Assembly (NCBI GenBank): GCA_030539655.1
Contig: JAUNXT010000005.1
Coordinates: forward strand, 1 to 55,172
Direction: 5' to 3'
Length of the DNA: 55,172 nt
Source: Methanocorpusculum sp.
GTDB taxonomy: Archaea > Halobacteriota > Methanomicrobia > Methanomicrobiales > Methanocorpusculaceae
Part shown: in pieces, positions 5,587 through 23,798 of the stretch
Layout: each line of letters opens with the position of its first letter
Numbering within the stretch: the stretch's first letter is position 1
Notes under the pieces: generated by a model
What the model saw: the letters and a program-made list of their open reading frames with translations, nothing else
Database searches by the model: none
What the model was told of the DNA's origin: nothing
Position numbers and translations under genes: made by a program

Positions 5587-6621
5587 ATGACAAGGGCAGT
5601 AATCCCAGCACTCATCGTCATTCTCACAGCAGGCCTTCTCATCGGAGGAGCAGCCGCTGCAGAATGGACTCCGGTTACCGTAACCGACACTGACGGAAAT
5701 CAGATAACCATCAGCGAACAGCCGGACAAAATCATCTCGCTTGCCCCCGCGTGCACGGAGATAATCTATGCGGTTGGCGCAGGAGACCGTGTTATCGGAG
5801 ATACCGACTACTGCAACTATCCGGAGGCGGCAAAACATGTGGAAAAAATCGGCGGTTTTTCAACCATCAGTAATGAGCGCATCATAACATTGTGCGACGA
5901 AAACACCGTTATATTTGCAAATCCGAAAAATAACGGGAAAGAAACAATCGACTACCTGAAAGAGCACGGATGCACGGTAATTGCTGCAGACATCCGGTCA
6001 GTGGATGACATCTACACAGCAATTGACCTTATCGGAACCACTGTCGGATGCAAAGAAAATGCGGACAAACTCAACAGAGAGATAAAAGCATCCATTGACA
6101 GGATTTCTGCAAAAGTCGCAGATGCAAAAGCATCGGGAAATGTCCCGACCGTTATGCACATTATACAGACAAATCCCTACTATGTCTCCGGTAAAAATAC
6201 CTTCCAGGATGAATTGATCACCATCGCAGGCGGCAGGAATGCATTCTCCGATGTTGACGGATGGGGGACGGTAACACTCGAAAGACTTCTGGTAACAGAC
6301 CCTGATATTATCATAACAGATGCAGTGAACGATTCCGGCTCATTCAATAATATCTCACTTGCAGACGCAATTAAAAATGAACCGCGCCTTGCAGCGCTTT
6401 CCGCGGTGAAAAACAACAAGGTCTATTCAATAAATCAGGATATTTTTAACCGCGGCGGACCAAGAATTGTAGAAGCCCTTGATATGCTTGCAAAGATACT
6501 GCATCCGGAAATTTTCGGAGCGGCCCCGACCCAGACCCCTGCAAAAACCCCGGGATTTGGAGCGGTCTCAGTGCTTTGCGGCGTGCTTGGAGCAGCACTC
6601 CTCTTACGTAGAAAAGAGTGA
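5587..6621 (+). CDS. Iron/cobalamin-type ABC substrate-binding protein with PGF-CTERM anchor
   Basis: The protein has 344 residues. Residues 1-25 form a signal peptide. Residues about 35-305 are the helical-backbone periplasmic-binding fold used for B12, haem and ferric siderophores (BtuF/FepB/FhuD type), with IISLAPACTEIIYAVGAGDRV, VIGDTDYCNYP, GGFSTISNERI, an ISGKNTFQDELI-like strand and PDIIITDAV. The C-terminus has a threonine/proline spacer, the PGF triplet, a hydrophobic stretch and RRK, which is the PGF-CTERM signal processed by archaeosortase A. It should therefore be displayed on the outer cell surface near the S-layer. No permease or ATPase gene is adjacent, so it is an orphan receptor here. 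The ligand is not certain. Confidence 0.9.
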   Translation: MTRAVIPALIVILTAGLLIGGAAAAEWTPVTVTDTDGNQITISEQPDKIISLAPACTEIIYAVGAGDRVIGDTDYCNYPEAAKHVEKIGGFSTISNERIITLCDENTVIFANPKNNGKETIDYLKEHGCTVIAADIRSVDDIYTAIDLIGTTVGCKENADKLNREIKASIDRISAKVADAKASGNVPTVMHIIQTNPYYVSGKNTFQDELITIAGGRNAFSDVDGWGTVTLERLLVTDPDIIITDAVNDSGSFNNISLADAIKNEPRLAALSAVKNNKVYSINQDIFNRGGPRIVEALDMLAKILHPEIFGAAPTQTPAKTPGFGAVSVLCGVLGAALLLRRKE

Positions 6622-20465: not shown

Positions 20466-20472
20466 TTTTTTT
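20466..20472 (+). terminator. T-run terminator of porCDAB
   Basis: A run of seven T begins right after the porB stop. It is followed by an A/T-rich region carrying the promoter of the next gene. Confidence 0.4.
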
Positions 20473-20530
20473 GCTGTTCAACTACCCTTCCATAAGAGTG
20501 GCGGGATGATATAATCCTGATAAAAACAGT

Positions 20531-20575
20531 TAAATATATATAATATTAGAAGAACATATTATAAATTGATTAACT
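20531..20575 (+). promoter_or_regulatory. TATA promoter of the TonB-plug-like gene
   Basis: TAAATATATATAATATT at 20531-20547 is a strong archaeal TATA element about 30-40 bases before the ATG at 20576. No RBS is evident. Confidence 0.5.
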
Positions 20576-21520
20576 ATGGTTTTCACTAACATATTGAAAG
20601 CAGCAGCGGTAGTGTGTCTGCTTCTTCTCATTGCAGGAGTCTTTTGCGGTGCCGCGGCAGCAACTGAACGAGATGGAGCCTATACTGGTTCTGATGCAGG
20701 CGTTAGTGGCGGGAAATTAATGGAAAATCCATCTTCTCAGATTACACAGGCGCTTCAGAACAGGGTTGCAGGTGTCGACATGCAGCAGACAAATACACAG
20801 CCGGGTGCGGAGATGAAAATCCGGATTCGCGGTGAGCGTTCCCTGTCTGCCTCAAATGATCCATTAATTGTTCTTGACGGCATCCCATTCCAAGGAAATC
20901 TCAGTGATATCAGCCCATCAGATATCAAATCACTGGACATCCTGAAAGATGCTTCAGCAACTGCCATCTACGGAAGCAGAGGGGCAAACGGTGTTATCAC
21001 TGTTCCTACTGCAACAGCAACCGCCAGCGAGTTCAGGAATAGTATAGAAAATCTTACATCCAGAGTCACAAACCTGTTTACGAATATCTCCACATATCGC
21101 ATTGCTAAGAGTAATGGAACAACCATTCAGGTTAAAGGGGACGACATAGCAAAACTGAACACAACCAACGCATTAGAGGCAATGCAGAGTTCGACCCCGG
21201 GAGTACAGATTACCCAGAAAAGTGCACAACCCGGTAAAGGATTCAAAGTAAATATCCGTGGTATCGGCACTATTGGTAACACATCTCCCCTCTACGTAAT
21301 TGACGGGGTTACCTCCAGTACTTCAGTTGGTCTCAACCCAAATAATATTGAATCCATAGATGTTCTGAAAGATGGGGCATCTGCCGCAATTTATGGTGCA
21401 AGGGCAGCAAACAGTACAGAACCAGTAAAATATTATTCAGATATATCACTCTTTGATGGGGTACAAAAGACAATCTCTAAATTCCTGACGGATCTTTTCA
21501 GTACTTTCCTGTCTTTCTAA
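20576..21520 (+). CDS. Exported protein of two tandem TonB plug domains, no barrel
   Basis: The protein has 314 residues. A signal peptide covers residues 1-29. Residues about 51-145 are a TonB receptor plug of the SusC type of Bacteroidetes: ITQALQNRVAGVDM, IRIRGERSLSASNDPLIVLD, DILKDASATAIYGSRGANGV. After a linker, residues about 188-280 repeat it (ALEAMQSSTPGVQITQ, VNIRGIGTIGNTSPLYVIDG, DVLKDGASAAIYGARAAN). The second copy lacks the closing GVI strand. There is no TonB box and no beta-barrel; the protein ends with an amphipathic tail rich in Phe and Leu (289-314). There is no PGF-CTERM. Archaea of this kind have no outer membrane, so a receptor role is unlikely. The family match is strong; the function is unknown. 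Gene transfer from gut-type Bacteroidetes is inferred. Confidence 0.85.
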   Translation: MVFTNILKAAAVVCLLLLIAGVFCGAAAATERDGAYTGSDAGVSGGKLMENPSSQITQALQNRVAGVDMQQTNTQPGAEMKIRIRGERSLSASNDPLIVLDGIPFQGNLSDISPSDIKSLDILKDASATAIYGSRGANGVITVPTATATASEFRNSIENLTSRVTNLFTNISTYRIAKSNGTTIQVKGDDIAKLNTTNALEAMQSSTPGVQITQKSAQPGKGFKVNIRGIGTIGNTSPLYVIDGVTSSTSVGLNPNNIESIDVLKDGASAAIYGARAANSTEPVKYYSDISLFDGVQKTISKFLTDLFSTFLSF

Positions 21521-21528
21521 ATCCCTAC

Positions 21529-21560
21529 AAACCGGTTAAACACCGGTTTTATCTTTTCAG
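21529..21560 (+). terminator. Hairpin terminator after the plug-like gene
   Basis: AAACCGG at 21529-21535 pairs with CCGGTTT at 21543-21549 across a seven-base loop. T-rich sequence follows. Confidence 0.6.
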
Positions 21561-21597
21561 TTTTTGAGAGGTATCGTTTCAACATATTCCTCCTACT

Positions 21598-21688
21598 GGC
21601 GTTGCCCATAACGTTAATTTCTTGAATGACTTCTATTAGGCAAATGTGATATATGCATATGTACGAAGAATACTTTATGGGTAACGCC
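21598..21688. repeat. 14-bp imperfect inverted repeat enclosing 63 bases
   Basis: GGCGTTGCCCATAA (21598-21611) is matched on the other strand by TTATGGGTAACGCC (21675-21688), with one wobble position. The enclosed 63 bases have no open frame of note. The ends look like terminal inverted repeats of a small non-autonomous element (MITE-like) or relic, but no flanking target duplication is obvious and no transposase is present. Confidence 0.45.
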
Positions 21689-22045
21689 ATCGATCTTTAA
21701 CATTCTCAACCTTTTTCCCTTTTTGCAGGGTAAAGGTTTAACTAGATACCGCTATATATTTAAAAAGACTGCCCCGCGAACTGTTTCTAACCACCACTCG
21801 ACAACCTGGCTGTACAAGGAGATGAGAATGAAGCAGCTCCGGCTCTGAATATCTCTGCTGATTTTTCCCGCGCCTACGTCTTTTTGCAGTTGTCATGTTA
21901 ACTTCGGAGAAAGGAGCAGGCACATTTCTCTTATTTTTTCCAGCAAAACTGATAAAGGTACTCACCCTTATCAGAACCTTCGCTAACGAGATTGGGAGTT
22001 CTTTAGACAGACTCAATATATACATTTCTACATTTTCCACCGAAT
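21689..22045. other. Non-coding or degenerate stretch before the his operon
   Basis: This is the only long gap without a secure gene. It holds a strong TATA-like element on the plus strand (TATATATTTAAAA, 21753-21765). Farther on come an AAGGAG and a six-codon frame (ATG at 21828, MKQLRL, stop at 21846-21848), and then a small hairpin and T-run near 21831-21866. On the minus strand a 100-codon frame (21738-22040) has no recognisable domain and an odd composition; I do not call it a gene. The region could be the relic of an insertion or could encode a short RNA. Confidence 0.35.
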
Positions 22046-22098
22046 ACTTTATTATAGTAAAGTGCTAATATAATACCACAATAACACACCGCAGGTGA
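22046..22098 (+). promoter_or_regulatory. Promoter, candidate operator and RBS of the his operon
   Basis: ACTTTA-TTATAG-TAAAGT at 22046-22063 is a perfect inverted repeat with a six-base spacer. A TATA-like CTAATATAATA follows immediately at about 22066-22076, and an RBS, AGGTGAT, is at 22092-22098 before the ATG at 22106. The repeat is well placed for a repressor or activator. That it regulates histidine synthesis is inference. Confidence 0.45.
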
Positions 22099-22105
22099 TT
22101 TATCT

Positions 22106-23176
22106 ATGGATGAGGCACTGTTAAGCGAAGAAAAAACCATTCTGAAACTCCGCACCCTCTACCGGAAATACGGCTACCAGCCGTACAAAATGAACCGGTT
22201 TGAAGAGTACGACCTCTATGTAAGAAACAAAGACTTTCTGGTATCGGACAACATCATCACCTTTACCGACACCGATGGAAAACTGATGGCCTTAAAGCCG
22301 GACGTCACGTTATCCATCGTAAAAAACAGCAAAGATATCAAAGGCACCGTCCAGAAACTCTGCTACAATGAATATGTCTGCAGAACATCCGCTCCCGGAA
22401 AACCCTTCAGAGAGATAATGCAGGCAGGACTTGAATGCATCGGTGACATCGACGACTACTGCCGCTATGAAGTCCTGCTGCTGGCATCCGAAAGTCTGAA
22501 ACAGATTGCCGACACTGCTGTCCTTGCAGTCTCCCATCTTGGAATTATTACCGGCATCTTAGACTCGCTTCATGTATCCTCGGCGGCATACGGACGCCTC
22601 ATACAGTGTATCGGGGCAAAAAACATGCATGAAGCATCCTCCGTCTGCAAAGAAGAAGGAGTAAGCGATGAAAACTTTGCTCTCCTCTCCTCCCTCATGT
22701 CCGCATCTGGAACACCCGATGAGGTCTTCCCTGTCCTGAAAACACTATTCCCAAAAAACAGCGATATAGAGACACTTGAGCGTATTATCTCCCATCTCCC
22801 TGAAGGAGCGGTCAAAATCGACTTCTCCCTCCTAAACGACATGCACTACTACAACGGCATCGTCTTCCAGGGATTTGTAAACGGCGTCCCGGATGCGGTC
22901 TTATCAGGCGGAGAATACGACCTTTTGATGCAGAAGATGGGGAAAAAGTCAAAGGCACTCGGATTTGCGGTCTACCTGGATAAGCTTGAGTTCCTCCTGC
23001 GGGAAAGAAATGACTATGATGTAGACACCCTGCTTCTCTACAGTGATGCCGCAGCACCTGCAGATGTTGCAAAAAAGATTCGTGAACTGACGGCGGCCGG
23101 AAAATCGGTATCCGCACAGAAAAGTGTTCCGGGAAATCTGCGTTTCCGCGAAACAATAACTCTTGGAGGGAACTAA
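22106..23176 (+). CDS. hisZ: ATP phosphoribosyltransferase regulatory subunit (HisRS paralogue)
   Basis: The protein has 356 residues. It resembles the catalytic core of histidyl-tRNA synthetase: LKPDVTLSIVKN in the class II motif-2 region, YNEYVCRTS, and an HMHYYNGIVF-like segment (MHYYNGIVFQGF) with LSGGEYDLL. It lacks the anticodon-binding domain and is shorter than the synthetase. HisZ is the partner that short HisG proteins need for activity and histidine feedback, and the next gene is exactly such a short hisG. An alternative call of a diverged histidyl-tRNA synthetase is unlikely given the neighbours. HisZ is mainly bacterial, so its presence here is notable. It is the first gene of the his operon. 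Confidence 0.88.
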   Translation: MDEALLSEEKTILKLRTLYRKYGYQPYKMNRFEEYDLYVRNKDFLVSDNIITFTDTDGKLMALKPDVTLSIVKNSKDIKGTVQKLCYNEYVCRTSAPGKPFREIMQAGLECIGDIDDYCRYEVLLLASESLKQIADTAVLAVSHLGIITGILDSLHVSSAAYGRLIQCIGAKNMHEASSVCKEEGVSDENFALLSSLMSASGTPDEVFPVLKTLFPKNSDIETLERIISHLPEGAVKIDFSLLNDMHYYNGIVFQGFVNGVPDAVLSGGEYDLLMQKMGKKSKALGFAVYLDKLEFLLRERNDYDVDTLLLYSDAAAPADVAKKIRELTAAGKSVSAQKSVPGNLRFRETITLGGN

Positions 23177-23177
23177 T

Positions 23178-23798
23178 ATGCTTAACGTTGCGTTACCGAA
23201 AGGACGGCTCGGCGAGTCTGTCTATGATATGTTTGAAAAGGCCGGATTCGGATGCCCTGAAATCAGGGAGGAGAGCAGAAAACTCATCTTCGAAAGTGTG
23301 GAAAACGGTGTCCGCTACTTCTGGGTAAAGCCTTCTGATGTCAGTGTCTATGTGGAACGCGGTGCGGCAGACATCGGAGTCGCCGGAAAAGATATCCTCT
23401 TAGAGTATGAGCCCGACATCTACGAGCTGGCAGACCTCCGCTGCGGAATCTGCCGGATGGTCTCTGCTGCACCGAAAGGATATCGTGATGATACCACACG
23501 GACCCTGCGCGTTGCAACGAAGTTTTCGCACATCGCACAGACATACTACACTTCGAGAGGGCGCGATATTGACATTATCCACCTAAACGGCTCGATTGAA
23601 ATCGCGCCGCTTTTAGGGCTTTCCGACCTGATTGTCGACATTGTTGAGACCGGAACCACCTTAAAAGAGAACAACCTTGAGGTGATAGATACCATTGTTC
23701 CAATCAGTGCCCGCCTCATAGCAAACAAAGCATCGTACGCATTTAAAAAAGCAGAGATTGATGCTGTAGTACGTGGAATAAAGAAGGAGACAACATAA
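23178..23798 (+). CDS. hisG: ATP phosphoribosyltransferase, short catalytic form
   Basis: The protein has 206 residues from ATG 23178, preceded by GGAGGG at 23165-23170. An in-frame ATG at 23163 lies inside hisZ and would add five residues. It joins ATP and PRPP in the first step of histidine synthesis. LNVALPKGRLGESV, RGAADIGVAGKDIL and LIVDIVETGTTLKENNL (the PRPP loop) are typical. The C-terminal regulatory domain of the roughly 290-residue long form is absent, so it should need HisZ. It is one base after the hisZ stop. Confidence 0.95.
   Translation: MLNVALPKGRLGESVYDMFEKAGFGCPEIREESRKLIFESVENGVRYFWVKPSDVSVYVERGAADIGVAGKDILLEYEPDIYELADLRCGICRMVSAAPKGYRDDTTRTLRVATKFSHIAQTYYTSRGRDIDIIHLNGSIEIAPLLGLSDLIVDIVETGTTLKENNLEVIDTIVPISARLIANKASYAFKKAEIDAVVRGIKKETT

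Follow-up and report, generated by a model that had tools for sequence, protein, structure and literature searches.

We analysed a stretch of 55,172 nucleotides (the window) that forms contig 68 of a draft Methanocorpusculum genome. The draft comprises 74 contigs and 1.2 Mb and is 76.66% complete, with a contamination estimate of 0.23%. The window carries 2-oxoacid oxidoreductase genes, which we take to be korA and korB, an MCM-like gene, histidine genes, and a binding protein with a PGF-CTERM sorting tail at 5587-6621, a gene set in keeping with a methanogen of the Methanocorpusculum type. Positions 1792-2535 encode a protein that looks exported and carries a chagasin-type peptidase inhibitor domain (PF09394). 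Positions 22106-23798 hold what is presumably a hisZ-like gene followed by a short hisG. A search for the hisZ-like protein (E ≤ 1e-20) gave only 3 carriers among 25 genomes of the genus, so this two-subunit form of the enzyme seems patchy there.

Between korB and hisZ lies an intact gene at 20576-21520 on the forward strand, which starts with ATG, has no internal stops and encodes 314 amino acids. An A/T-rich, TATA-like box of the archaeal type, for which a consensus is known, was recognized by inspection at 20530-20549 (+), 27 to 46 bases 5' of the start codon. Behind the gene, 21529-21549 (+) form a terminator-like hairpin (AAACCGGT...ACCGGTTT) with a T-rich stretch after it, identified by consensus match only. 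Four such hairpins occur in the region against 1.2 expected. A sigma-70 scan, which does not cover archaeal promoters, returned 6 sites against a shuffle mean of 4.5. The box and the hairpin are candidate signals, legible at the consensus level only.

Protein anatomy

The protein begins with a predicted signal peptide (residues 1-30, 20576-20665), assigned from DNA and weak protein matches to genus-mates. It continues with plug 1 (residues 35-145, 20678-21010), an amphipathic helix (residues 150-172, 21023-21091), plug 2 (residues 181-279, 21116-21412) and a second, C-terminal amphipathic helix (residues 290-313, 21443-21514), all on the forward strand. Two matches to the Pfam Plug family PF07715, at 20702-20995 and 21110-21412, are each above the curated cut-off, with E 1.4e-35 for the whole protein. 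Together with sequence identity and a tree (see below), they place plug 1 in one SusC subfamily (A) and plug 2 in another (B). The NCBIfam SusC/RagA models TIGR04056 and TIGR04057 each match in two stretches. The TIGR04056 score of 255 bits falls below the whole-protein cut-off of 368 because the barrel is missing. Solved SusC/RagA structures match each plug alone, with best E values of 6.3e-21 (copy 1) and 3.5e-21 (copy 2). The signal peptide, the two SusC-type plugs and the DASATAIYGSRGANGV motif, here at residues 125-140, had all been named in the original prediction and are borne out.

The same prediction had held that the barrel and the TonB box are absent, and both absences were confirmed. 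The frame ends at 314 residues, and the 588 bases 3' of it gave no match to the SusC loci collected up to then (blastx E ≤ 1, tblastx E ≤ 0.1). A TonB box of the VVVVGYG type stands just upstream of the captured stretch in all 8 relatives compared and is missing before both archaeal copies. No SusD partner adjoins the gene, whose neighbours are korB and hisZ. A truncated SusC remnant is not supported as an explanation, since no barrel traces were found in those 588 bases and the two plugs belong to different subfamilies. The Pfam scan found no PGF-CTERM tail on the protein, and no other sorting tail, lipobox or transmembrane helix was seen by eye.

The two helices are predicted in both AlphaFold models and have hydrophobic moments of 0.48 (helix 1; equalled by 0.5% of shuffles) and 0.44 (helix 2; 0.45% of shuffles). 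Local pLDDT is ~65 for helix 1 and about 42-57 for helix 2. Neither helix is found in the four SusC relatives compared, which differ at those places. We considered that the likeness between the helices marks a repeated native unit and rejected this, as 21% of shuffles scored as high. Structure prediction, which had been proposed as a check, thus gave both helices and no confident fold; mean pLDDT was 48.7 and 43.0 for the two models.

Origin of the two plug domains

Relatives of plug 1 and plug 2 were aligned separately (A2, A3). Plug 1 is 72-73% identical to SusC proteins of subfamily A (L130, L140, L141, L142). Plug 2 is 79-84% identical to SusC proteins of gut Bacteroidales and Prevotella (L004-L009), including 82% over 99 residues to one from a horse-faeces Bacteroidales (L004) and 84% to one from a roe-deer rumen Prevotella (L006). 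These values reverse the earlier suggestion that the second copy is the more diverged. Most relatives of either copy are SusC frames of ~1,020-1,290 amino acids, and the exceptions are cut by contig ends or broken, such as L150 and L158. SusD adjoins SusC in all four loci checked from the two source families. The last SusC-like residues are GVITVPT for plug 1 and YGARAAN for plug 2; the sequence beyond is unlike that of the relatives.

A tree of 53 rows and 111 columns separates the two plug sets with support of 100/99. An AU test in which the archaeal copies were forced together gave p 2.6e-6 and a log-likelihood 63 lower; it was done after a larger first tree (112 rows) had shown the same split. 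Duplication of a single plug, raised earlier as an old event, is rejected under the model and sampling used. The subfamily split and the AU result together indicate two plug captures from two genes.

The expectation of two different donors holds at the level of source genes and is looser at the level of organisms. Xylanibacter ruminicola (G544; L013 and L131) and Geofilum rhodophaeum (G547; L078 and L130) each hold both subfamilies, so both plugs may derive from one donor genome. Relatives of plug 1 at E ≤ 1e-40 occur in at least 16 of 295 genomes from the order of Xylanibacter ruminicola. When six exact 8-residue patterns were run against 84,980 species genomes, 80 of 85 relatives were kept. 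Of these 80, 79 bear Bacteroidota names, and the remaining one (L025) is listed only as 'uncultured bacterium'. A Bacteroidota source, as originally proposed, is therefore upheld by both identities and tree. A place among ordinary archaeal proteins, the outcome that had been set against this proposal, did not emerge, and no archaeal homologue was found that groups with the protein.

Both copies keep nearly all conserved columns. Copy 1 retains 20 of 20 invariant and 14 of 15 near-invariant positions (25 bacterial rows), and copy 2 retains 35 of 36 and 10 of 12 (26 bacterial rows). At the DNA level, identity to nine relatives is only 59.5-69%, and the gene is therefore no recent copy of any gene compared. 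pS is 0.72-0.87, near saturation, and pN is 0.14-0.25. The protein similarity would have been kept on the donor side, on the archaeal side or on both; the gene has a single archaeal carrier, and the low pN may date from the donor lineages. End branches are 0.29 (copy 1) and 0.10 (copy 2) against a median of 0.073 in the 53-row tree, and 0.30 and 0.18 against 0.016 in the larger first tree. Such longer branches would fit relaxed or changed constraint.

Assembly in the archaeal lineage

The stretch coding for the signal peptide contains 38 bases that are 89% identical to the corresponding stretch of an exported-protein gene of a genus-mate (G026). In 12 further genomes of the genus the first 40 residues find weak matches, at 19 places altogether, with E between 9e-5 and 0.05. 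By eye, 14 of the 19 places look like signal peptides, four have no candidate and one (L180) is unlike. Two further short matches to the start of the gene, of 37 and 19 bases in G019 and G029, were taken as chance.

The block between korB and hisZ that holds the gene spans 1,563 bases (20474-22036, +), as delimited by blastn of its flanks. The nearest relative, G010, has 146 unrelated bases at this site and lacks the plug gene. Its flanks match those of the window at 93.9% and 89.9% identity, with no match inside the block. The gene is likewise missing from the site in G026, which is the one further genome of the genus to have a corresponding hisZ.

Codon usage was scored as fit to the host minus the median fit to 69 Bacteroidota SusC genes. 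At 0.283 the plug gene lies inside the host-gene range (0.233-0.424), and Bacteroidota plugs have a mean of -0.162 (range -0.284 to 0.359). By part, plug 1 scores 0.216, just below the host range, and plug 2 scores 0.33. Among the codon tables tried, that of native exported genes gives the best fit to the whole gene. The L064 table comes out slightly ahead of the general host table, but not ahead of that of the native exported genes. At 0.395, GC3 is lower than in any of the 23 window genes or the 9 native exported genes with which it was compared.

A mobile element was considered as a carrier and set aside, because the repeat finder listed no direct or inverted repeats of at least 12 bases (seed 9, 20466-22110) and a search with the stretch 3' of the gene (E ≤ 0.01) matched none of the 24 remaining genomes of the genus. 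By eye we noted an imperfect inverted stretch 3' of the gene at 21598-21688, GGCGTTGCCCATAA ... TTATGGGTAACGCC, with 13 of 14 pairs and arms 63 bases apart; the repeat finder did not list it at seed 9. In a separate comparison of the site after korB across the genus (20466-22105 here, L093-L116 elsewhere; products judged by eye), the content varies. Membrane proteins, regulators, an exported repeat protein in G027 (L103, L169) and, in the window, the plug gene follow korB. The stretch 3' of korB may be a variable site.

Distribution

Among 33 genomes of the family and 232 of the order, only the source genome was found to carry the tandem-plug protein. Across 392 genomes drawn from the phylum, the source genome included, 6 contain the Plug family at all. 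In the other five (G335, G390, G398, G422, G457) it lies on contigs of 4-29 kb. The plug frames of G335 and G457 look by eye like ordinary receptors or pieces of them, and those of G390, G398 and G422 are 753-969 amino acids long. These frames may be binning contamination or real archaeal receptors. As a side observation, the Plug matches at L084 (G398), L085 (G422), L087 (G457) and L088 (G390) lie in frames of 683-969 amino acids, and L087 has the appearance of a full receptor.

Viral contigs gave no match to the plug protein. Among plasmid and phage records none covered at least 80% of the archaeal query at a single location, and the tandem arrangement was accordingly not seen in them. A literature search covering titles and abstract openings found, among the matches listed, no description of a plug protein in a methanogen. 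Genes of bacterial origin have been reported in marsupial lineages of host-associated Methanocorpusculum (PMC10035134); in that paper's main text, 'TonB' and 'Bacteroid-' do not occur.

Discussion

The reading we favour, as an evenly balanced call, is that the gene is a domain-capture chimera whose exported product serves as an extracellular binding module. Its parts are not equally secure. The sequence shows a genus-type signal peptide joined in frame to two plugs, which very probably come from two Bacteroidota SusC receptors, as the subfamily tree and the matches to genus-mates indicate. The joining looks to have taken place in the archaeal lineage. Export by the Sec route is also probable, if slightly less so, given the signal peptide. 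The final step, that the extracellular plugs act as binding modules, is the weakest and is offered tentatively. The earlier proposal of a module that is soluble or held at the surface is in line with it and plausible.

Under this favoured reading, each plug was trimmed near its domain limits out of a separate SusC-type receptor, and the genus-type signal peptide would direct Sec export. The protein could then be released, or held loosely at the surface through its amphipathic helices, since inspection, mostly by eye, revealed no lipobox, sorting tail or transmembrane helix. The helices may shield those surfaces of the plugs that in a receptor face the barrel wall. The plugs might bind the glycans, peptides or cofactors that the donor receptors recognize, or surface proteins of neighbouring Bacteroidota such as SusD-type lipoproteins. 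Such binding might help the archaeon to hold or recognize hydrogen- and formate-making Bacteroidota partners on which it feeds. None of the neighbouring genes points to a ligand. TonB-driven gating is impossible for a plug without a barrel and a TonB box, which supports the earlier view that the protein is not a gated transporter.

The main rival is a young, non-adaptive chimera, in which foreign DNA came to follow a native signal peptide; such a gene would have little or no expression and no function, and would decay. The single carrier in the order, the absence of the gene from the site in G010 and G026, the long end branches of both copies, the low GC3, the codon score of plug 1, which narrowly misses the host range, and the low-confidence fold all speak for it, and all but the empty sites count against the favoured reading. 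So do the one Bacteroidota plug that reaches a codon score of 0.359 and the fit of the L064 table. Plugs, moreover, are reported from work on FepA to fold poorly, perhaps, without a barrel. An idle chimera accounts less readily for two separate captures, each trimmed to a domain, in one open frame that keeps nearly all conserved columns. The promoter-like and terminator-like elements and a codon usage nearest that of native exported genes also speak against it. We consider it a serious possibility, if on balance an improbable one.

A different function for the same anatomy is conceivable. Shed plugs might act as decoys or competitors, binding ligands, SusD-type lids or bacteriocin-like toxins aimed at Bacteroidota receptors, with the effect of hindering or shielding the neighbours rather than attaching to them. 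Predicted secretion with no visible anchor and the constant presence of SusD beside SusC in the source-family loci checked are compatible with such a role. In receptors, however, the plug sits inside the barrel and is only partly exposed. The adjoining genes, korB and hisZ, are not toxin or immunity genes. We regard a decoy, in either version, as unlikely.

A binning or assembly artefact, in which Bacteroidota DNA was wrongly joined to an archaeal contig, deserves mention in a fragmented and incomplete draft, and contamination had been raised as a concern at the outset. Both flanks are nevertheless syntenic with G010, the frame begins inside a genus-type signal peptide, and codon usage is host-like. 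The DNA is far from all nine relatives, the contamination estimate is low, and plugs of two subfamilies with no barrel between them do not make a piece of an ordinary SusC operon. An artefact is very unlikely. Acquisition of one plug followed by its duplication in the archaeon would explain why the copies are alike in layout, and their membership of different SusC subfamilies, at the branch support and AU value given above, leaves it next to no credence.

Domain capture by gene transfer is a known kind of event, as is gene transfer from bacteria to gut archaea, and the present case is a singleton that rests on one draft genome. What sets it apart is that nothing but a receptor's gate was captured, twice over and from two subfamilies, and placed behind an archaeal export signal, in a host cell that cannot use a captured plug as a gate. 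A bolder proposal would be that this methanogen lineage builds exported proteins from single receptor domains of its Bacteroidota neighbours, so that a plug outside a barrel becomes a binding module linking the archaeon with a bacterium, which would put the TonB plug fold to a new use; we find this doubtful. Should folding and binding both prove true, whether a plug has binding activity of its own would become directly testable, alongside a barrel-less bacterial protein described below (L157), and the protein would point to molecular contact between methanogens and Prevotella-type bacteria.

Comparison with known systems

The closest known system is the SusC/RagA receptor family (TIGR04056, PF07715). 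Both have the SusC plug in common, and the YGxRxAN motif is kept in the archaeal copies. The archaeal protein differs in that it has no barrel, TonB box or SusD neighbour, and for these reasons it is not a SusC receptor. Its chain also joins two plugs from two subfamilies to a genus-type archaeal signal peptide, and its cell presumably has no outer membrane. Methanogens of this kind are not known to have one.

Exported and adhesin-like proteins of the genus (such as L162, L164, L166 and L173) offer a second comparison. Their signal peptides are of the same style as that of the plug protein, and native exported genes of the genus come closest to it in codon usage. Their mature parts, in contrast, are unlike it by eye, and the genomes from which these four come (G026, G010, G019, G016) contain no Plug match. 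The PGF-CTERM tail of the binding protein encoded earlier in the window is likewise absent from the plug protein.

A third comparison comes from the bacteria themselves. Three short plug frames in Bacteroidota were inspected. Two (L156, L158) are SusC genes with shifted frames, in which the barrel continues in another frame. The third, L157 (2103-2822, - strand, in G541, the genome that also holds L004), encodes an intact Bacteroidales protein of 239 amino acids with one plug at its end and no barrel. Like the archaeal protein, it has a signal-like N-terminus and a Plug match above the cut-off, and its frame ends right after the plug; no SusC similarity was found in the 2.1 kb 3' of the frame. 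It differs in having one plug, with ~100 residues and a GYG box (VDVGYG) ahead of it, and its host is a bacterial cell with an outer membrane. At 39% identity, L157 is too distant to be the source of the archaeal plugs. A plasmid search with it matched mainly records annotated as TonB-dependent receptors. L157 is a partial precedent, in that a plug can persist without a barrel in bacteria, and we counted it in favour of the domain-capture reading because a plug can evidently be kept as a separate protein. The absence of a barrel is therefore not unique to the archaeon. L157 makes that absence less novel and a function for the plug outside a barrel somewhat more believable.
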